From positions 1-37,952 of the IMG/VR virus record IMGVR_UViG_3300021225_000115: a DNA stretch of 37,952 nucleotides, one strand, 5' to 3'. Position 1 is the first letter of the stretch. Each line of letters opens with the position of its first letter. The DNA is from a virus. Both the position numbers and the translations under genes were made by a program. Shown in pieces: positions 11,245 through 37,360 of this stretch. The notes under the pieces are model-generated. The model made no database searches. It saw only the letters and a list, made by a program, of their open reading frames with translations, and was not told the DNA's origin.

Positions 11245-11931
11245 TTAGCGGTAGAACGAGCAGTAGACATAGTTCGGGTTATAATTACTAACAGTCAAAG
11301 CAAGGGTCTGAAATGAAAAATTGTTTGTATTAACAAAGTTAAAATATGGCATGTAAGGAAAAGTTGCTCCAGATTGACCAGAATATGTAATATTAGCCAT
11401 ATAACTGGTGTCAGCAAAAGCAGTTGTGAAATTTATCGTAAAGTTACCAACGCCTACATAAGTAACGGAAGACACGTTGTATGATGTGCGGATCACGATT
11501 GCGCCGCTAGATGCGTCGAAGTTTACCCAAGCGCGGGGCGCTAAAACTGGGTCAACCGAATAGATGTTGGTGCCATCAGAGTAGACCAAAACCTTTCCGC
11601 CGTTTGGAACTGAGACGGAAGTGCCTCCCGCTACGTTCCCGATGGTGAGCGTAAAGGCACCGCTGGTGTTGTTCTGAACGATCCAATCACCGCCGACCCC
11701 AGACGGGATTTGGTAGGTCACGTTCGCGGTCAGCGTGCCCGTGAAGTTTAGGATCAGGCTGCGATATTCGGCAGCCGTCAGGACAACCGGAGTGGCAGTG
11801 ACGCCTGTCACGCTCTTGGACGTGGTCGCGCCAAGTGCGCTGTCGATATATCCGAAGTTTGCGTTCAGCGGCACATCCCAACTGGTGGAATTGACAGCGG
11901 GTTGCTCAAGGCCCTTGTTCGTCGTTGCCAT
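11245..11931 (-). CDS. Tail fibre / receptor-binding-like protein
   Basis: 228 aa from the ATG at 11931 (GGAG six bases before). The N-terminus (ATTNKGLEQPAVNSTSWDVP, then LNANFGYIDSALG) is an attachment module seen on many phage fibres. Residues 55-130 form a beta-rich shaft module (GDWIVQNNTSGAFTLTIGN, then VPNGGKVLVYSDGTNIYSVD). From about residue 150 the sequence changes to an aromatic, Asn-rich tip (SYMANITYSGQSGATFPYMP, FNFVNTNNFSFQTLAL). That tip is encoded by markedly AT-rich DNA (about 32% GC at 11281-11460, counted by hand, versus about 57% in the shaft). This suggests a swapped receptor-binding tip. It may clip onto the tail as a minor spike. Confidence 0.72.
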   Translation of the reverse strand: MATTNKGLEQPAVNSTSWDVPLNANFGYIDSALGATTSKSVTGVTATPVVLTAAEYRSLILNFTGTLTANVTYQIPSGVGGDWIVQNNTSGAFTLTIGNVAGGTSVSVPNGGKVLVYSDGTNIYSVDPVLAPRAWVNFDASSGAIVIRTSYNVSSVTYVGVGNFTINFTTAFADTSYMANITYSGQSGATFPYMPYFNFVNTNNFSFQTLALTVSNYNPNYVYCSFYR

Positions 11932-13766
11932 CAAATGCTCCTGTTCGCTACTGCCAAGGCCTTGACCACTGTTTCGTCGCTTTGGTTCAGCAGCGGTTCG
12001 GTCTTGGCGCTCCACCCCTTCTTAGCACGTTCTGCAGCGCGTACCAACTGGTCCGCATCGGCCTCGTGCGAGGAAACGCGACCGCCTGACCTGCGGCCCT
12101 CGCGGTCTGCAGCACCAACCGCCACAGGAGCGGCCATCATAGGAGCCATAGGCTTTCCGTACAAAGCCTTCGACTTGGCGACATTCTGGGCGTACCGAGA
12201 GCCTTTTGCCAACCGCAGCCCCTTCTGGAGAAGGTGCGCCCCGGCAGTACCCGCCGCCCCATAAACTGCTGGCATCACGAAACTGGCCAAGTTTGACGGA
12301 GACACTCCATACATGAGAGCCGACAGGCCAGCAGACCCGATCCCGCCTGCAGCGTCGATAATGTACTTCATGACGCTTCTTTTGGCAGCCTCAGTAATTG
12401 GAACCCCCATCTTGAGAAGATAGTTGTCGGCAATCTTTGCGATCTCCGTCAAGTCCTGCGTGTGCCGAGTGCCACTGACCGCAAGGATGTCTTGCGCGGT
12501 AATCTGGCCAGCCCTTCCATTTGACGCTGCGCGATCAAGGGCATCCCTTGTAGTCAAAAGCCTTGAGTACTGAGAGTTGGCCGATTGCAAATCGGCAAAC
12601 GCAGCAGGCCCAAGAGATTGCTGCACCGCGCCGTCAATTTTCTCAATGAGCTTTTCGGCAATAGGCTTGAAGGATGGGCCGTGAGAAGCCCCCTGAGCCT
12701 CAGAAACAATCTTGTTTGCTTCCTGCCTGACTGCGTGCATCCAATCGCCAGACTTCATGACAGATGGATCGTACTTTGAAAGTTTTGGCATCTGACCGAC
12801 CAGATACTCAATCTCGCTCCAGTCAGATGGAGAGAAGTTTCTCCTGCGTACGTTGCTGTACACGCTGCCAATCTGAGGGCCAAGCTGCTTAATGGCATGC
12901 TCAGTAACCCTCTGAGCATTCGCCGGGGACAGGCCGCCTGCAAAGCCAGCCGACCGCGCAAGATCGTCGGTGATGCCGACATCGCGCAGGACACCTTTGC
13001 TGAATTGATCGGCCTGACCAGCAATGGTCTTCGACGGGCCTGAGAGGCCTGCCTCCTTGCCAATGGCGTCTCTCGCCGCTTTTTGCGACGTACGATACGA
13101 CCCCGGCGTGACATTAACGCCGAACTGCTCAAGTTTGGCCAGATCGTCTACGGTCGTCTGGAGAGCCGGATTGGCCAATTTTTTGCCCAGAGACGGTAGC
13201 GCCTTTGAAGCTCCCATAGGGGACAGAATTTCAGCACCAAGTTTGGCGTATTGCCCAACCTGTTCAGGGTTGTCCATCTTGAGGGCCGTGGCAATGCCTT
13301 CCCCGCCTTCACGCGCAACCTCTCCCGCAACGCCGGGAACCAAAGCGCCGCCGACCAGCGTGGGGACAAGTGACGTCCCTCCAGTGAGTGCAGCGGTGGC
13401 GGCGGTGGGCGCGAATGACAGCACGTTCTTCGTGGCGCGGCCAGCGAAGGTTTCGGGAGTGTAGTCAGTATAGCCGCCAGTCAGTTCAGACGCTTTGTTC
13501 TTGACCGCGCCATAGACGTCGGGCGCAAGCATGGGCTTGCCGCCAAGCAGCTTCGTCATGCCGATCTGGGAGGCATTGAACAGGGTAGTCGGCAAGCCGA
13601 CCAGTGCTGCAGCGCCCTCCGTCAGGCCGGATGCCGCAGTCCTTGCGCCACCGCTGATCCAGCCTTCGGGTTCGGGGTTCTTGAAGTACTTCCCGCTCGG
13701 GACGATTTCTTCCTGCATGGGGCCTTGCCGGAAGTACTTCCCGCTCGGGACGATCTCTTCTTCCAT
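11931..13766 (-). CDS. Internal virion / DNA-ejection-type protein
   Basis: 611 aa. The N-terminus carries the same decapeptide twice, EEIVPSGKYF at about residues 3-12 and 19-28, encoded by a 48-base direct repeat. The body is Ala/Gly-rich with amphipathic and weakly hydrophobic helices (TAATAALTGGTSLVPTLVGG, GSAGLSALMYGVSP), as in podovirus internal core proteins that cross the envelope during ejection. Near the C-terminus is RRSGGRVSSHEADADQLVRA, one of the Gly-Gly motifs shared among the virion proteins here. Position directly behind the 1481-aa transglycosylase-like protein fits an internal-core pair. No enzyme motif seen. Confidence 0.6.
   Translation of the reverse strand: MEEEIVPSGKYFRQGPMQEEIVPSGKYFKNPEPEGWISGGARTAASGLTEGAAALVGLPTTLFNASQIGMTKLLGGKPMLAPDVYGAVKNKASELTGGYTDYTPETFAGRATKNVLSFAPTAATAALTGGTSLVPTLVGGALVPGVAGEVAREGGEGIATALKMDNPEQVGQYAKLGAEILSPMGASKALPSLGKKLANPALQTTVDDLAKLEQFGVNVTPGSYRTSQKAARDAIGKEAGLSGPSKTIAGQADQFSKGVLRDVGITDDLARSAGFAGGLSPANAQRVTEHAIKQLGPQIGSVYSNVRRRNFSPSDWSEIEYLVGQMPKLSKYDPSVMKSGDWMHAVRQEANKIVSEAQGASHGPSFKPIAEKLIEKIDGAVQQSLGPAAFADLQSANSQYSRLLTTRDALDRAASNGRAGQITAQDILAVSGTRHTQDLTEIAKIADNYLLKMGVPITEAAKRSVMKYIIDAAGGIGSAGLSALMYGVSPSNLASFVMPAVYGAAGTAGAHLLQKGLRLAKGSRYAQNVAKSKALYGKPMAPMMAAPVAVGAADREGRRSGGRVSSHEADADQLVRAAERAKKGWSAKTEPLLNQSDETVVKALAVANRSI
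13683..13759 (-). repeat. 48-base-spaced direct repeat encoding EEIVPSGKYF twice
   Basis: Two near-identical stretches of about 28 bases, starting at 13683 and 13731 on the plus strand, encode the duplicated N-terminal decapeptide of the 611-aa protein. They differ by one base over the first 25. The low divergence suggests a recent duplication or selection to keep the peptide. Confidence 0.8.
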
Positions 13767-13784: not shown

Positions 13785-16700
13785 TCACATTGCCGATCCG
13801 GCAGACCAGCCGGGTTCTTGCGTTGGCGTCACCACGGGTGCGGGGGTGGCCGAGCCGCCGACAAGCACCCACTTTCCGTTTTTGTAGACAATGTCTCGGC
13901 CATACTGGTCCTTGTCAGTAGAGCCTTCCCGAATTTCTTTGGGTACAGTCGTATCCGTTTCACGCTCCCCTGCAAACGGCGGCATCTTGGCATTTGCTTC
14001 CTTGATGTACTTGTCGAGCGGGTGGTTTTCAGCAAACCACTTCTGGTACTCGACCAGATCGTTCGGGTTCTTGGCTTCAGTGCGCTGCCACAAGGCGTGC
14101 ATGTCTGCCTTTTCGTATTCGCGTTTGAGGACGGCCTGCTGCATCGCAAGAACAAACTTGACGGCCTCCGGCTGCATGTTTGGATCGGTCATGTACTTGC
14201 CGACCAGTTCCATCTCTGGGCTGGTGGCGTTTGCGCCAATGACCTCAACAATGCCTTGCGCCCTGAGCTTGATGGCCTCTTGGGCCAATGCAGCAATCTC
14301 GCCCTCTCCGAGGCCAGCGACGTTGACCCCCAGTGCGCGGAGCAGAGCGTCAGCCTGTGCCACCTGCGAGGTGAACGACCCTGCGGGCAAGGATTGATAG
14401 ACCTCAATCTGCTTCTGGACGTTCTGAAGCTGACCGGGGACAGTCTCCATGATCCCTGCTGCCTTGTTTCGGAAGTCCTGCGTCATGATGTTGTTGGCCT
14501 CGTCGGCTGCAACCATTCCGCGCTTGGACAAGACGGCATCTACCGGGATTGTGATGGCCGTACCATCTGCCGCAATACCAGTGGTATAACCGTTTTGCTC
14601 GATTTCAGCGAGTTTCAGCCTTGCTTGCTCTGCGGCAGTTCTTTGGGGAGTTCCCTCTTTCGCCGCTCCCCATTGCGCTACCAGTTGGTTCAGGGATGCG
14701 TAATCATTCATGAACGGAATGCTCACCCCCTTCGGCCCCGCAACATTGCCACGAACATCTGCAAGGGACAGGGTTGGCAAAGCGCCGTTTTTGCCAGTCT
14801 GGTCAGGCCCGCCTGCGGTTTGGAAGTTCAAGCCGCCCTGCGGGAGAAGGTATTCCAGCCCCTGCGCTTTTGCAAAGTCATCGATCTTCATCCCAGAATA
14901 TTGAGGGTTGGTGAACATGAAGTTGTTGTACAGGTCGTTCAACTCGCTCATGTTTGCAATGTTACGCTGAGCAACCTCTCCGCGCTGTTTCTCAAGCCCA
15001 GCGTAGGTGTTGGCTGCGCCGCCGATGCCCTGCAGGATTGCAGACCCAAGGTAGCGGGAAGGAGAGGAAGCCATCGTGCCGATGCCGCCAAGGATAGACA
15101 GCAGAGCGTCCTTGTTCACGCGACCATCGGGATTATAGAACATCTTTCCGAGCGTGGTGCGATCTTCATAAGCCTTGTCGCCACCCATAGGCTCGCGGGC
15201 AGGACCAGCAAGGCCACCAGAAACGTTAAGAGCGCCGGGAGCGGCATTTGCGTTGACTGGCGCAAGGCCGCCGCTAACAGCACCAGCGCCTTCAGACGCG
15301 GCCCACGGCGTTGCGCCGCCACGGTTTTGGTACAGCCACTTGGCCATAGCCTCTTGGAGATCGGGCGTCATTTTCTCGTCGCCGGAAAGGCCCATATTTT
15401 CCTTGATGTCGCGCAGCGTGCTGCCGACGATCTGGTAGGCACCCATCGGGGTTGCTACATAACCGAGGTTCTGTTTGGACCACTGGCCGTACGGGCCGTT
15501 CGGATCAGAGAATTGGATAGCCTGATCCACGGTCATGTCAGTGACCTTGGTGCCAGCGAATGGTCCGTCTTCACGGTTGCTGAAACCATACAGAGCATCG
15601 TAGTCGCCGCCGCTTTCGCGTGCCTTGATCTTCGGGGCAAGTTCGGTCCAACCCATCGGCTCTGCGGTCTGGTTAGGTTTCAAGCCACCAATAGTCGTGT
15701 CGCTGACAGGGACTACCTTCAAGCCATCTGCGGTGAATTTAGGGGTAGTTGTTGCAGCCGATAGCGGAGCCACACCGCCAGTGATGCCAGCAGCAGTCAG
15801 GTCTTCCATAGGTACGGCTTCCGGCACAAGACCCGTGGGGCGAGGCTGCGGGCGCAGGGAGGTCTCGGGGGCGTAGGATGGCACAGGTGCAGCAGCGTCA
15901 CCACCGAGGTACGCCACAGGGTTCAGACCAGAAGCAGATGCCGAACGAGCAATGCCGGGATCGCGTGCTGCAAAGCCGCGCAGATCGGCGGTGAGCGTGC
16001 TGCGATCTTCGGGGTTCATTTGGTCAACGGCACCAAACGGAGAGCGCGGCAATGGGCGGCGCGAGGTCATCGGCGCAAGCGGCGACACTAGCCCTTCAGG
16101 GCGGGCCTGCGGACGCAGGGAGGCTGATGGTGCATATTGGGACTGCGGGGGCGCACCAGCCTCTCCACCGAGGAACGCGACGGGGTTCACGCGCTCCGAA
16201 GACGCATCCCTTGCAACTCCGGGGTTGCGGACAGCAAAGGCACGAAGGTCAGCAATATACTGCCGCCGCTCTTCTGGTGTCATGTCTTCGACGGCACCGT
16301 TCGTGGCATAGCCAGCGCGGCCACCACGGTTCATGCCGAAGAGTTTCATGGCGATCTTGGCGATGTCTACGACGTCTTCCCCGGTGGAGCGTGCCTGCGG
16401 GGCCTGTGTTGGAGGGGCAAGGCCATTGCTCTTCTTGTCTTGATCGGACTGGGCATCCAGAGCGTCGGACAGATAGCTGCGTGTCCCCATCTGCGGATCA
16501 TCGTGCCGCATGTATGCAGGGCCGCCGCTGGCATAGTTGCCGACGACGCCACCGTGTGCAGTTCTCTGATTGGCCGCTTTAAGTGCGCGGCGCTGTTCGT
16601 TCGACATCCAGAAGTCGCCGTCCTTGCCGAATTTCTCTTTCAGATTGGCCAGATTGGTGCCGAAGTCAGATGCCGCGCCCAACTGTTCGGCCAAGCTGGC

Positions 16701-18230
16701 CTGTGCATTTTGCAAGAACGCAGGATCAGCCACCATCAATTCACGGACGTTCAGGTTGGCTTGAGGCACGTAGCCCTGAGAGCCGTAGGGGCCAGCCACG
16801 CCGCCGCCCTCTGCTTTGGTGGCGCGGTCGTAATCAACGGTCTTGTATCCAGTCGGGTGCAGGCCAACGGCATCAGGGCGCACCTTCTCGACCTCATCAG
16901 CCATAAAGCCGATGTGGGTCTCCGGTTCGCCCTTGTAGCGGTACTTGTAGATCGGCAGGCCGTTGTCGCCTTCGCCGATGCGCTGAACATCTTCTTTGAG
17001 GCGGCGATCCGAGAAGAAGGAACTAGGCTGCGTGGTTGTAGTGGTCGACCCTGATGCGGCACCAGTACCCGTCATAATGCCTGCAAGCCACGTTGCAACT
17101 TCAAACGGGTAGCCGTTTTCCTTCATGAACTGGTCGCGCAGTGCGTCCTTGCCAGCCTGTTCGGTCTTTCGCTCCAGAGAGCCAGCCGCGACTTTTGCAT
17201 TGGCCCCAGCCAAGCCAAGCTCTTGTTCCTTTGCGCCAAGCCCTGCGGTCTTTTCAGCCGAACCAGACCCAATCTCGTACCCTTGTTTTGCAAACTCCCC
17301 TTGCTTTGAGGCGTTTGTCAGGCCGAGGTTTGCACCGGAAAGGCCCAGAGCAGCCAATTCTTTGGCCGATCCGGAGCCAATATCGTAACCCTGCTGTGCA
17401 AGTTTTGCTTTTTGGGCAGCGCTGAGCAGGCCGAGGTTTGCGCCAGAGAGGCCAAGGTCGGACAGTTGTTTACCGCCTTCTGTAAGCCTTGCAAGATCAC
17501 GCTCACTGGCCCCCAGAGCCTGCGTATACCCTTGGTTATAGATGTCGGCCATCGTCTTGCCGTAAGCCATCCCTTGCTGGTTTGACAGGTTAGCAGCGGC
17601 AACGCCCGCGCGGTCCCCGCCAAAAGCTCCGGAAGACGCAGCCCTGCCGAGAGCACCAGATTGCGCCTGCTCATTTGCTTGACGCAGCATGGCCCCAGTC
17701 GTGTCGGCCACGTTTTGGATGTATGGCGACATGTATTTGTCAATACCAGCGTAGGCAGGCCCCATGCCTGCCGTTGTGGCGCTAGTGGCTGCAGAGAGGT
17801 ATGGATCATACGAAGAAGCAGCCTCGCCAGTTTCGTTATATGCCTCTTCAGTTCCATAGAGACCGCCAGCAGTAGCGTCGTCAAGACGGCTGGTCGCTTT
17901 AGACAGATACGGATCGTAAGACGCCGTTGCGGCATTTGCCAAGTCCGAGGCGGTTTTTGTGCCAGATAGCCCGCTGGTGGTTGCATCGCTCAGAAGGGTT
18001 GAAGCCTTGTCAAAGTAAGGCTTATACGCTCCGGCTGCCGCGTTGATGTCGGCGATACCGCTTTTCTCTTGTTCATTTAGCTGCGCCACAAAGTCGGACG
18101 CGGTAGTCCCGAATTTCTTGAATGGCGTTGCGGCGACGTTTTCCGCTCTTGCGTTGACCGCGTTGTAACGGGCAAGAACCTCCGGCGGAATGGTGACTTG
18201 AGACGTGGTTGTGGAGTTCTTCTTGCCCAT
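13785..18230 (-). CDS. Giant multidomain virion protein: S74-like chaperone segment plus lysozyme/transglycosylase domain
   Basis: 1481 aa. Residues 1-400 are Ala/Gly-rich with two different 36-residue repeats: YDPYL..AT at 69, 105 and 141, and LGLSGANLGL at about 259-330. Residues about 405-475 match the Peptidase S74 intramolecular-chaperone signature (FSDRRLKEDVQRIG, PIYKYRYKG, HIGFMADEVEKVRPDAV), normally at the C-terminus of fibres. Residues 645-808 hold two 76-77-residue repeats ending in SLRP..RP motifs. Residues about 860-980 form a lysozyme-like fold with the catalytic-type Glu in KARESGGDYDALYGF, then PMGAYQIVGSTL and W.YQNRGG. This would locally open peptidoglycan during DNA ejection. 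The last 400 residues are helical without clear motif. Upstream of the 611-aa internal protein; likely an internal-core or ejection protein. Confidence 0.75.
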   Translation of the reverse strand: MGKKNSTTTSQVTIPPEVLARYNAVNARAENVAATPFKKFGTTASDFVAQLNEQEKSGIADINAAAGAYKPYFDKASTLLSDATTSGLSGTKTASDLANAATASYDPYLSKATSRLDDATAGGLYGTEEAYNETGEAASSYDPYLSAATSATTAGMGPAYAGIDKYMSPYIQNVADTTGAMLRQANEQAQSGALGRAASSGAFGGDRAGVAAANLSNQQGMAYGKTMADIYNQGYTQALGASERDLARLTEGGKQLSDLGLSGANLGLLSAAQKAKLAQQGYDIGSGSAKELAALGLSGANLGLTNASKQGEFAKQGYEIGSGSAEKTAGLGAKEQELGLAGANAKVAAGSLERKTEQAGKDALRDQFMKENGYPFEVATWLAGIMTGTGAASGSTTTTTQPSSFFSDRRLKEDVQRIGEGDNGLPIYKYRYKGEPETHIGFMADEVEKVRPDAVGLHPTGYKTVDYDRATKAEGGGVAGPYGSQGYVPQANLNVRELMVADPAFLQNAQASLAEQLGAASDFGTNLANLKEKFGKDGDFWMSNEQRRALKAANQRTAHGGVVGNYASGGPAYMRHDDPQMGTRSYLSDALDAQSDQDKKSNGLAPPTQAPQARSTGEDVVDIAKIAMKLFGMNRGGRAGYATNGAVEDMTPEERRQYIADLRAFAVRNPGVARDASSERVNPVAFLGGEAGAPPQSQYAPSASLRPQARPEGLVSPLAPMTSRRPLPRSPFGAVDQMNPEDRSTLTADLRGFAARDPGIARSASASGLNPVAYLGGDAAAPVPSYAPETSLRPQPRPTGLVPEAVPMEDLTAAGITGGVAPLSAATTTPKFTADGLKVVPVSDTTIGGLKPNQTAEPMGWTELAPKIKARESGGDYDALYGFSNREDGPFAGTKVTDMTVDQAIQFSDPNGPYGQWSKQNLGYVATPMGAYQIVGSTLRDIKENMGLSGDEKMTPDLQEAMAKWLYQNRGGATPWAASEGAGAVSGGLAPVNANAAPGALNVSGGLAGPAREPMGGDKAYEDRTTLGKMFYNPDGRVNKDALLSILGGIGTMASSPSRYLGSAILQGIGGAANTYAGLEKQRGEVAQRNIANMSELNDLYNNFMFTNPQYSGMKIDDFAKAQGLEYLLPQGGLNFQTAGGPDQTGKNGALPTLSLADVRGNVAGPKGVSIPFMNDYASLNQLVAQWGAAKEGTPQRTAAEQARLKLAEIEQNGYTTGIAADGTAITIPVDAVLSKRGMVAADEANNIMTQDFRNKAAGIMETVPGQLQNVQKQIEVYQSLPAGSFTSQVAQADALLRALGVNVAGLGEGEIAALAQEAIKLRAQGIVEVIGANATSPEMELVGKYMTDPNMQPEAVKFVLAMQQAVLKREYEKADMHALWQRTEAKNPNDLVEYQKWFAENHPLDKYIKEANAKMPPFAGERETDTTVPKEIREGSTDKDQYGRDIVYKNGKWVLVGGSATPAPVVTPTQEPGWSAGSAM
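15807..16298 (-). repeat. Two tandem 76-77-codon repeats with SLRP motifs
   Basis: Copy A is 16068-16298 and copy B 15807-16034, separated by 33 bases (period 264). Each encodes GAV..M.PE, then a helix ADLR.FA.R.PG.AR, NPVA.LGG, and YAP..SLRPQ.RP.GLV. The copies differ by many substitutions, so the duplication is old and the pattern is kept at protein level. Confidence 0.9.
17241..17456 (-). repeat. Two 36-codon repeats (LGLSGANLGL units)
   Basis: Copies at 17349-17456 and 17241-17348, each 108 bases, encode LGLSGANLGL then a variable helix, then QGY(D/E)IGSGSA. A third, degraded unit (LGLAGANAKV) follows. Likely an extended helical or glycine-zipper-like array within the N-terminal region of the 1481-aa protein. 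Confidence 0.88.
17780..18026 (-). repeat. Three 36-residue-spaced Y(D/K)PY(L/F) repeats
   Basis: YKPYFDKAST, YDPYLSKATS and YDPYLSAATS start at residues 69, 105 and 141 of the 1481-aa protein, an exact 36-residue period, with ATTSGLSGT / ATAGGLYGT linkers. The same period as the LGLSGAN array suggests one underlying structural register. Confidence 0.85.
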
Positions 18231-18234
18231 TGCC

Positions 18235-18723
18235 TTACCCTTCAGTCAGTCCTGTTTTGGCGTTATACAGGAAGTAGACGCCAGCGGGAGCGCCGAACAC
18301 ACGTTCGTAGAGGCGAATTTTTGCCTCAGTCCTTGTGTTGGACAATACCCCAATCGACAGCGGAATACCAAGATTTTCTGAGATGCTCTTTGCCCACTCC
18401 GCCAGCTTGCGTGCGCGGCCCCCTTTTGCCGACCGAAACTCAGGCGCGACGTAGATCGCCTTCTCTTCCAAGATCGGTTCCTTGCTGTACCAGACGGGTC
18501 CGATGCGAAGTACGATGGCAGCCTCAAGAGGCTCTCCGGGGCCGCCGCCGATCACTCCAGCCACGCCCATGTTGTTGATCAATGCTGCATACATATGTTC
18601 CGCCAGCATCATCTCGTCAGGTTGGACAAATGCGTTTTCCCGCGTGGCGTCCATCGTCAGGCGCATCAGTTCGTTGAAGTCTTCTACAACACCGCGTCGT
18701 ACGAAGATTTCGCTCATGTTCAT
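18235..18723 (-). CDS. GNAT-family acetyltransferase
   Basis: 162 aa; AAGGA six bases before the ATG. The GNAT fold is seen as VRRGVVEDFNELMRLTMDAT (motif C/D start), a central strand ending in EKAIYVAPEFRSAKG, the acetyl-CoA pyrophosphate loop RSAKGGRARKLAEWA (motif A, R/Q-x-x-G-x-G/A type, residues about 96-110), and motif B near IGVLSNTRTEAKIRLYERVF. Small GNAT proteins occur within the structural operons of several podoviruses, where they could modify a virion protein or a host target; the substrate is unknown. It sits four bases upstream of the 1481-aa gene and is co-transcribed with the internal virion proteins. Confidence 0.8.
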   Translation of the reverse strand: MNMSEIFVRRGVVEDFNELMRLTMDATRENAFVQPDEMMLAEHMYAALINNMGVAGVIGGGPGEPLEAAIVLRIGPVWYSKEPILEEKAIYVAPEFRSAKGGRARKLAEWAKSISENLGIPLSIGVLSNTRTEAKIRLYERVFGAPAGVYFLYNAKTGLTEG

Positions 18724-23573: not shown

Positions 23574-23740
23574 TTGGCGAGGATGGCAGCGTTCACAGCG
23601 CCGCCTGCGGCCACCGCCAGTGCGATCTGGTTCAGGTCCAGTGTCAGGGTGCCAGCGGAGGCATCGAAGCGCCCAAAGCCTGCTGCCGCAGCCAGAGCGG
23701 CGACGGTGTAGATGGCAACGCGCACATAGGTCGGGTTCAT
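23558..23740 (-). CDS. Small holin-like membrane protein
   Basis: 60 aa with two hydrophobic segments, about residues 6-22 (VAIYTVAALAAAAGFG) and 38-55 (QIALAVAAGGAVNAAILA), a turn region with FDASAGTLTLD, and a basic C-terminus AKWGKK. This is the layout of small class II-type holins. It sits between the endolysin (ATGA overlap) and the spanins. It would permeabilise the inner membrane to release the endolysin; the nearby XhlA-like protein may assist. Confidence 0.75.
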   Translation of the reverse strand: MNPTYVRVAIYTVAALAAAAGFGRFDASAGTLTLDLNQIALAVAAGGAVNAAILAKWGKK

Positions 23741-24255
23741 TTGTTCCTCCAGATTGCGTTGATCAGTTCAAGCAGCCAGTTGGTCTTGGTTTCCTTGGTG
23801 ACGGCGGCAGGTGCGGTCGCTACCGCTGGCTCAAAGCCGCGACGGATGCCCAGAAGCTGACCTCCATCCACGCGATAGGCACGGCGGTTCACTGCGTCCT
23901 GCTGGTTCCCACCAAGGATGGTGATCGTGGAGCCGTTGTCGCGTACGAAGAAACCAACGTGCCCCTGCCATGCTGATTTTCCACGCGACAGGATTACGAT
24001 GTCCCCCGGCTGCGCGTCCTTGCGTTCGACCGCCGTGCCCCAGTTCAGGTACGACCGAGCATTCAGCATGCCAGTGCCGTGCCTGCCAGACCGCGCCAGC
24101 ATGGCCCCGACAAATGCGGCGCACCATGCGGTGGCGTCATCGGTTACCTCTGGGTGGCCAGCGTCCTTGAAGTACGCCACCACCTTCGGATTGCTTCCGT
24201 CTTTCCATTCGACCGTGCCGATCTCGGTCTCTGCCAGCGTGTAGACTTTGTTCAT
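23737..24255 (-). CDS. Endolysin, TIGR02594-type NlpC/P60 peptidase
   Basis: 172 aa. The catalytic region reads ATAWCAAFVGAMLARSG (Cys45), then PGDIVILSRG and GHVGFFV (His99), with an Asn/Gly strand TITILGGNQQDAVN. These are the marks of the TIGR02594/CHAP-like NlpC/P60 endopeptidases used as phage endolysins against stem peptides. There is no signal peptide and no separate cell-wall-binding domain, consistent with a Gram-negative host and holin-dependent release. The C-terminal 35 residues (VTKETKTNWLLELINAIWRN) form a hydrophobic amphipathic helix that may help membrane contact. Confidence 0.85.
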   Translation of the reverse strand: MNKVYTLAETEIGTVEWKDGSNPKVVAYFKDAGHPEVTDDATAWCAAFVGAMLARSGRHGTGMLNARSYLNWGTAVERKDAQPGDIVILSRGKSAWQGHVGFFVRDNGSTITILGGNQQDAVNRRAYRVDGGQLLGIRRGFEPAVATAPAAVTKETKTNWLLELINAIWRNK

Positions 24256-35855: not shown

Positions 35856-36068
35856 TTACATGCCAGCCGTGATGGTCATGGCTTTGTGAACCGCAGCATG
35901 GTGCTTGTGTTTTTTCTTGCGGCTGTAATCTGGGTTCGGGTGCCGTGGCGCAGTTTTATTCGGGTGCGCCAAGTCTGCAGGAACATAATCATGCTCCTGA
36001 TCGGTCAGGTACTGCTCGTGATTATGGAACTGTGCGTGGAACGCTTCGGCGGGTAACTTTCTGATCAT
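35856..36068 (-). CDS. Small His/Lys-rich protein
   Basis: 70 aa. Its ATG overlaps the upstream TGA (ATGA) with AAGGA nine bases before. It is rich in His (HAQFHNHEQYLTDQEHDYVP, then RKKKHKHHAAVHKA), so metal or nucleic-acid binding is possible. No known family. Located between the gp88-like gene and the Gly-Gly repeat protein. Confidence 0.55.
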   Translation of the reverse strand: MIRKLPAEAFHAQFHNHEQYLTDQEHDYVPADLAHPNKTAPRHPNPDYSRKKKHKHHAAVHKAMTITAGM

Positions 36069-37360
36069 TGTGATTTTCCTTCATTGTCTTTCAGGTTCAG
36101 TTGACGGCCCTGCGGTGCGATATGCACCTCAAAGTTTGTCGGAAGCGTCGGACCCAGCAGCGGCTTTCCGCTCGGACCCATGCCCTGACTTTGTCCGCGC
36201 TCATAGGTGCCTTTCTCTGTGCGCTTTGCTTTCGGATCGTAGCGCACAAAGAAGCCCTTGCTCTCCTGCGTGGCCCTGTCAACGGTTCCGATTGCCTTCT
36301 TATTCTTCAGGCCTACGATGACGCCATCGGTGCCATCTGGCTGAATGTCCAGCGGGCGGAAGTCGTGCTTATCGCCGTTGACCACCTTGTACCGCTTGCC
36401 AGTTTCGTCATCCACCACGACTTCCGGCAGATGCTCTTTGTGAGAAAACGCCATTGCGACGTTGTCACCTTGGTCGAGCCTGCGGCGCATCTGCTTCCAA
36501 TTCGTGTGTTTATTCACGACGCCGACGGTGGGATCGGACACACCAGTGGAGGAATAGGTGTAATGGTGGTTTGGGGCCACTGGGTTTGAGTTATTCTTAG
36601 TGTAGTCATAAAACGACACGTCTGGGTGCGCCTCAATCAGGGACTTGTGAACCAGCGGGTTGATGTCGGACAGCGTATTCAGACGTACGCCAAGGTGGTT
36701 TCCGTTCCGTGCGGCTTCTTCTTTTGCGCGGTCAATTTCATCATACAGGCGTACAGCAAAGGCTTCCGGCTCCCGCATCATGGCAAGGGTTTTCTTCAGG
36801 CTGTTCAGGCGTGGCCCCTTGAATGCGCTCAAGTCTTGGCCGCCGCCAACCTTGAAGTAATTGCCCGATGTCTTTCCAAGGCATTCGTCCTTGCACGACG
36901 CAGAGTTCGGGCACGTCGAGAATTTGCCCTCTTGATATGCAGGTGCCAGCGCCAGCCCAGTAGTCTCCACGCCGCGCCCATCGTCCAGCTTGACGGGTTC
37001 CTCGTCGCCATATCCCGTCTCCGACTTCAGGAGCTTGGCGTTCTTGGTCAGCAGGGGGGCGGCACCCTTGCCGCTGCTACTTGGGAGGTGCTGTGCAATC
37101 CTGCGATCTGCCGCCATAGCGTTCTGAATGCGCTCGTCGCGCGACAAGGAGAGGTGGTTGGCGATGGCAGTATCAAAAGCAGCCTTTAGGCTCTTCATGG
37201 TCGGGGCTTCATCCGAAGACTGAAACACCCCAACTTTGCCACCTGTCGGCTCCTGATACCCTTGCGGCCTGATTGCAAACCGTGGGGTCGCACGGGGCGC
37301 AGTAATGGGCGCAGATGCGCCGCTCGTCATGGCCAACGCCTTGCTTACGATGTCGACCAT
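36065..37360 (-). CDS. gp88-like protein with extra N- and C-terminal regions
   Basis: 431 aa. The core (about 140-290) reads EGKFSTCPNSASCKDECLGK, GPRLNSLKKTLAMMREPEAF, RLYDEIDRAKEEAARNGNHL, GVRLNTLSDINPLVHKSLIE and FYDYTKNNSN. Cys triad, RLN..SDI and FYDYTK are the marks of the phage gp88-like family, whose activity is not known to me. The order of strands with terminal short motifs is compatible with a TIM-barrel-type enzyme. The N-terminal 130 residues (with PTGGKVGVFQ, another Gly-Gly motif) and the C-terminal 80 are extensions. One base separates it from the upstream gene's stop. Confidence 0.65.
   Translation of the reverse strand: MVDIVSKALAMTSGASAPITAPRATPRFAIRPQGYQEPTGGKVGVFQSSDEAPTMKSLKAAFDTAIANHLSLSRDERIQNAMAADRRIAQHLPSSSGKGAAPLLTKNAKLLKSETGYGDEEPVKLDDGRGVETTGLALAPAYQEGKFSTCPNSASCKDECLGKTSGNYFKVGGGQDLSAFKGPRLNSLKKTLAMMREPEAFAVRLYDEIDRAKEEAARNGNHLGVRLNTLSDINPLVHKSLIEAHPDVSFYDYTKNNSNPVAPNHHYTYSSTGVSDPTVGVVNKHTNWKQMRRRLDQGDNVAMAFSHKEHLPEVVVDDETGKRYKVVNGDKHDFRPLDIQPDGTDGVIVGLKNKKAIGTVDRATQESKGFFVRYDPKAKRTEKGTYERGQSQGMGPSGKPLLGPTLPTNFEVHIAPQGRQLNLKDNEGKSQ

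Follow-up and report, generated by a model that had tools for sequence, protein, structure and literature searches.

Peptidase S74 domains are known as chaperones that are removed from trimeric fibres; MYRF has one in mid-protein, which cuts itself and so splits the protein carrying it (PMC3742443). A Ser and a Lys of the domain are essential for cleavage in both MYRF and endosialidase (PMC8326128, PMC3742443), and T5 pb1 and Bdellovibrio Bd3182 remain uncut when the S74 Ser is mutated to Ala (PMC4690869, PMC10769870). The cutting hole of MYRF is lined by the pair Y615/Y617, and its cleavage needs trimerization, for which the coiled coil is chiefly responsible (PMC8326128). As regards ejection proteins, Hardies et al. 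(PMC10386132) describe, for the related Sulfitobacter phage phiGT1, an IVPB and an IVPA that is homologous to P22 gene 14 and T7 IVPA. In the openly readable literature that we searched, we found no paper linking S74 to ejection proteins and no description of the gene fusion, the coil-less form, the variation in copy number or the intact-or-absent pattern reported below.

We analysed a stretch of viral DNA of 37,952 nucleotides (IMG/VR record IMGVR_UViG_3300021225_000115, the whole of which is called the window here), in which an S74 signature lies in the middle of a long open reading frame.

The 1481-residue protein and its neighbourhood

The gene is a single open frame on the minus strand, running from an ATG at 18230 to 13785 and encoding 1481 residues; all of its features, and its two neighbours, are on this strand. 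The frame is real and complete, and its start is backed by an N-terminus that is kept in relatives (MGGK.STTTQ..IPPEVLARYNAVN). Most of the protein is homologous to the 'internal virion protein D' of MW202675.1. Since this entry and more than 100 metagenomic relatives share the same layout, both chance and assembly error can be ruled out as its source. A first scan of viral contigs with the single sequence as query gave no matches, and a genome scan for the host returned only metagenome-assembled genomes from mixed phyla. We are highly confident that the gene encodes two ejection proteins fused into one, with a coil-less S74 module between them, and the evidence supports this well.

Residues 1–390 (17061..18230) form the ejection-protein part, predicted to be α-helical, in the position of P22 gp7 and T7 gp14. 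Residues 50–469 match the PHROG profile phrog_4287, 'DNA ejection protein', with an E value of 2e-7; all 35 fused relatives examined match this profile, and 34 of them match phrog_6121, 'virion structural protein'. An AlphaFold (AF2) model of residues 1–560, with an alignment of 39 relatives as input, is helical to residue 390, with a long helix (324–390) preceding a Thr-rich linker; in this model neither a trimeric β-helix nor any other β-structured stalk stands before the S74 module. Foldseek gave no significant match in the PDB for the 560-residue model. The initial annotation took the first part to be fibre-like, that is, a tail fibre trimmed by its S74 domain, and the S74 motif alone does match fibre PHROGs too; however, the helical prediction, the ejection-protein families and the gene order are all contrary, and we have discarded the fibre identity as very improbable. 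A hydrophobic helix before the S74 module was considered as a membrane segment and rejected: its hydrophobicity is moderate and falls under the transmembrane level in nearly all copies. The N-terminal part in the window also has extra helical repeats (17195–18050; approximately residues 60–140 and 255–345) that are missing from relatives and leave long gaps in the alignment.

Proteins in which the S74 module is the C-terminus occur among ejection proteins elsewhere. In Pseudomonas phage PAE2 (PAE2_13), phrog_598, 'DNA ejection', covers residues 3–228 and S74 is appended at the end; Pseudoalteromonas H6/1 gp17 (pfam13884), annotated as a putative ejection protein, has two further ejection proteins after it; and the S74-ending protein of Vibrio phage 199E37-1 carries a DNA transfer protein annotation. 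A profile comparison of fused with split N-terminal parts aligned the S74 module only, so the PHROG profiles are the basis for taking these N-terminal parts as homologous.

In Sulfitobacter phage NYA-2014a, Rhizobium phage RHph_I3_18 and EBPR podovirus 2 the genes are split, and their order is a neck gene, an acetyltransferase-like or equivalent gene, a 326-residue S74-ending protein, a hydrolase of about 650 residues and a last protein. The window keeps this podovirus gene order, except that a single frame encodes both the S74 protein and the hydrolase. Directly upstream, in the IVPA position, is a GNAT acetyltransferase-like gene (18235..18723; weak Pfam and PHROG matches), which has the same place in the relatives L002, L006 and L008. 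Directly downstream is a 611-residue protein (11931..13766) with no family match in Pfam or PHROG; by its position, which is syntenic with L002, L006, L007 and L008, it is probably the last ejection protein. When viral contigs were scanned with the split form, 80 were returned; in these the S74 module is terminal, the protein stopping 63–88 residues after the Ser, and the next open reading frame usually overlaps or abuts the stop of the S74 protein. Synteny and Rosetta-stone evidence show that in the window gene two adjacent podovirus ejection-protein genes have become fused. The initial annotation did not remark on this fusion, nor on the loss of S74 without splitting in close relatives.

Residues 857–984 (15279..15662; RESGGDYDALYGFSN ... 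PMGAYQI) match phrog_14527 with an E value of 5.5e-16 and are a predicted lysozyme-type peptidoglycan hydrolase domain, an identity taken from homologues that carry lysozyme or endolysin annotations, in roseophages among others. This segment gave no Pfam match and no match in a sequence search of solved structures in the PDB. The separate hydrolase beside the split S74 protein in L125 shares 40% identity with it over 99 residues (E value of 4e-18), and 39 of 121 fused C-terminal parts, that of the window included, match separate hydrolases by BLASTP. Between the S74 module and the hydrolase lies the SLRP repeat (15822..16189; unit of about 262 nt), a genuine duplication in two copies at 15822–15925 and 16083–16189; both the hydrolase and these repeats had been noted in the initial annotation as following S74, and both hold. 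Beyond the hydrolase is a conserved Gly-rich hydrophobic segment (residues 1018–1090; 14961..15179) in which G1068 is invariant; no homology of this segment to the separate hydrolases of L006, L007 and L008 was detected. The hydrolase slot is filled in fused relatives by SLT, Phage_lysozyme, Hydrolase_2, GH108, Phage_lysozyme2 or VanY domains, and the hydrolases of split relatives include SLT, Phage_lysozyme2 and Hydrolase_2 domains. The position (15279–15662 and its equivalents) is thus a swap site for at least six peptidoglycan-hydrolase families in relatives. Elsewhere in the window, a separate small protein (23737–24255) matches T4 gp5-type tail lysozyme and endolysin PHROGs, and 36065–37360 encodes a Gp88-family protein (Pfam PF17338, E value of 1.3e-19).

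The embedded S74 module and its cutting motif

The helical part is joined to the S74 module by a conserved Thr-rich linker (residues 391–406; 17013..17060; SGSTTTTTQPSSFF) that ends in F406 as P1 and has low pLDDT at 391–393 and 400–404. The module itself comprises residues 407–471 (16818..17012). Pfam PF13884 (Peptidase_S74) matches residues 407–455 with an E value of 1.5e-10 and 41.6 bits, against a curated cut-off of 22. In the AF2 model of residues 1–560, a compact α/β module with pLDDT >90 is found at 405–471, followed by a disordered Gly-rich stretch. At the sequence level, a profile of the module detects S74 domains of known structure (PDB entry 6f45 with an E value of 7e-5 and the MYRF entry 7dc3 with 6e-4). 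For a model of the isolated module, the top VIA match was the MYRF ICA domain (7dc3), with a Z score of 3.8 over 60 residues where unrelated rows reached 2.8; Foldseek gave no significant match for this model. The S74 signature proposed in mid-protein is confirmed by the PF13884 match and the intact dyad, with the module ending near residue 471 and not at 475.

The module is far from the C-terminus, with 1010 residues following it. It is of the ejection type, whose modules end some 65–75 residues after the Ser (about 65 in the window form); in four fibre controls the distance from the Ser to the end of the protein is 89–100 residues and a coiled coil is present. Where fibre S74 domains have this coiled coil, the window protein has a Gly-rich disordered linker (residues 472–502; 16725..16817; pLDDT <50 at 475–502). 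In none of 160 embedded copies is the module followed by a run of 28 residues free of Gly and Pro, and the 50 residues after the module contain a median of ten glycines. The canonical picture of a removable C-terminal fibre chaperone, from which the initial annotation had started, does not apply to a module with neither an upstream β-helix nor a C-terminal coiled coil. As MYRF cleavage needs trimerization, which the coiled coil mainly drives, and the coil is missing here, the usual trigger for cleavage is absent. Its place might be taken by an oligomer that the ejection protein would itself form. The same absence of the known trimer-dependent trigger speaks for a second explanation, in which S74 is a folding or assembly module (a cap, an oligomer seed or a docking piece) that never cuts, and the fused protein works as one chain; we give this explanation rather less than even chances. 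Also on its side is a phage tail-fibre chain in the PDB (8jov), whose sequence record still lists the S74 stretch.

The FF/SD junction is F406/S407 (17013/17012), and the Ser-Asp at the cut site and the Lys at +5 are present in the window as S407, D408 and K412. S407 (17010..17012) is the predicted nucleophile, equivalent to S911 of endoNF and S587 of MYRF (PMC8326128, PMC3742443), and K412 (16995..16997) is the predicted general base, equivalent to endoNF K916 and MYRF K592. S74 copies were found with a profile built solely from the columns after the motif, and the motif residues were read afterwards; the scan patterns that had yielded the contigs with embedded copies also lacked the motif. 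Ser, Asp and Lys are each present in 140 of 140 distinct embedded copies. R410 (17001..17003), at the position of MYRF R590, is Arg in 138 of them and Lys in the other two. The 81 distinct C-terminal copies, the counts for which are somewhat biased because the scan supplying them included the motif, have Ser in 77, Cys in three and a register slip in one (which is also the odd one out at the Lys, kept in 80 of 81), with Arg in 72. At P1, Phe is found in 94 of the 119 distinct embedded copies read there. By profile alignment, Y430 and Y432 (16935..16943) correspond to Y615 and Y617 of the cutting hole of MYRF; position 430 is Tyr or Phe in 70 of 70 copies and position 432 in 60 of 70.

Every third-position choice occurs at the Ser, Asp and Lys codons, so that synonymous codons are fully varied and the conservation of these residues acts at the protein level. 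In principle this conservation could be structural. Against a module that never cuts, however, the invariant polar residues of the module are concentrated in the SD.R.K cutting motif, and among the copies examined (140 embedded and 81 terminal) the Ser is exchanged for Cys alone and no catalytically dead copy was seen. The three C-terminal copies in which Cys replaces the nucleophile Ser (CDPRMK; L147, L156 and L158) would have a Cys-Lys dyad.

Loss and multiplication of S74, and the proposed fate of the chain

An S74-blind scan with residues 1–400 alone returned 80 loci. Most of these carry S74 with the motif intact, and 11 lack it and are still one open reading frame as far as the contig reaches; in the latter the Thr-rich linker is joined straight to the Gly-rich segment. 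Fused but S74-less single frames are seen in L180, L181, L187–L189, L206, L216, L230 and L231. L180 and L181 have the hydrolase family of the window (36% identity over residues 858–1436) and N-terminal parts with 46% identity, with identities to the two halves of the window protein in the range 36–47%, and no S74. In a tree of N-terminal parts, S74-less sequences are among the nearest rows to the window, and at least two to three changes are needed to account for them. That S74-less relatives remain single open reading frames favours the module that never cuts; as L180 and L181 stay in one frame without S74, splitting is not essential in that lineage. The state of S74 is nevertheless either intact or absent and never decayed, which argues that its role depends on the motif.

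A second S74 copy is present in 33 of 90 distinct fused open reading frames of more than 900 residues; the window has one. In 17 distinct two-copy cases read in detail the copies are 214–458 residues apart and SD...K is present in both (two-copy loci include L012, L017, L024, L041, L046, L047, L049, L057, L210 and L233). With about a third of the fused relatives carrying a second copy, some may be self-cutting polyproteins. A general scheme, in which one or two (possibly three) embedded coil-less S74 modules would cut an ejection polyprotein and free ejection proteins and a swappable hydrolase without the known trimer scaffold, is offered tentatively, and we think it somewhat less probable than its opposite.

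Two products might also arise by another route, through an internal start after S74 or through a separate protease of the phage or host. The one candidate start is a GTG at codon 478 (16799), just past S74 and with a weak GAGG upstream; it is not conserved in relatives and was rejected. Starts with strong upstream Shine–Dalgarno-like sites within 60 codons after S74 are present in only 3.6% of embedded copies, against a background of 0.7%, and are thus no conserved device. The other route also leaves the conserved dyad unexplained, and we consider it improbable.

Self-cleavage at F406/S407 is plausible from the motif and its conservation, with a likelihood that we place at about even or somewhat above. 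In the explanation that we favour, a helical protein like P22 gp7 and T7 gp14 (internal virion protein B), which elsewhere ends in S74, has been fused to the peptidoglycan-hydrolase ejection protein that follows it, with the coil-less module of about 65 residues at the old gene junction and its Ser407–Lys412 dyad intact. After synthesis or during assembly, the module would then most likely cut the chain between F406 and S407. The products would be a 406-residue ejection protein and a 1075-residue hydrolase beginning with the S74 module, nearly the same pair as the split genes yield, and both parts would presumably enter the virion and be ejected. Taken as a whole, this explanation is held in even balance, because the coiled coil is missing and S74-less relatives are viable.

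Comparison with known systems

That the coil-less S74 of ejection proteins is catalytically intact in every copy or else missing altogether suggests self-cutting in a protein that does not have the usual trimer scaffold. If the cutting is true, it would show how fused ejection genes can still yield separate proteins, and the window protein would be among the few self-processing phage polyproteins. The split form is present in cultured relatives, which makes the question testable at once.

The family is not an unknown one, as large proteins of this kind from uncultured phages have already been deposited: A0A6J5N916 and A0A6J5LD05 ('Intramolecular chaperone auto-processing domain containing protein') are the same large proteins, and so is the 'internal virion protein D' of MW202675.1, which has a transglycosylase-like segment where the window has the lysozyme. 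None of these three entries describes a function or processing. The S74-tailed gp7-like proteins (H6/1 gp17, PAE2_13 and the Sulfitobacter phage proteins; phrog_6121 and phrog_4287) have the same coil-less module, helical protein and neighbourhood, but they end with the module, and the hydrolase has a gene of its own. T7 gp16 and the P22 ejection proteins likewise place a hydrolase on an ejected virion protein, although the gp14-like and hydrolase proteins are encoded by separate genes. The fibre S74/ICA domains (endosialidase K1F, T5 pb1 and phi29 gp12) share the SD.R.K motif with its Ser-Lys dyad, the core sequence and PF13884 with the window module, which differs in lying in mid-chain, after a helix and a Thr-rich linker rather than a trimeric β-structure, and in having no C-terminal coiled coil. 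The human MYRF ICA domain is similar in its place within a larger protein, its dyad (S587/K592) and its aromatic pair (Y615/Y617); MYRF splits into two functional parts, but it keeps the coiled coil and a β-helical stalk, and its partner domains are unrelated to those of the window protein.
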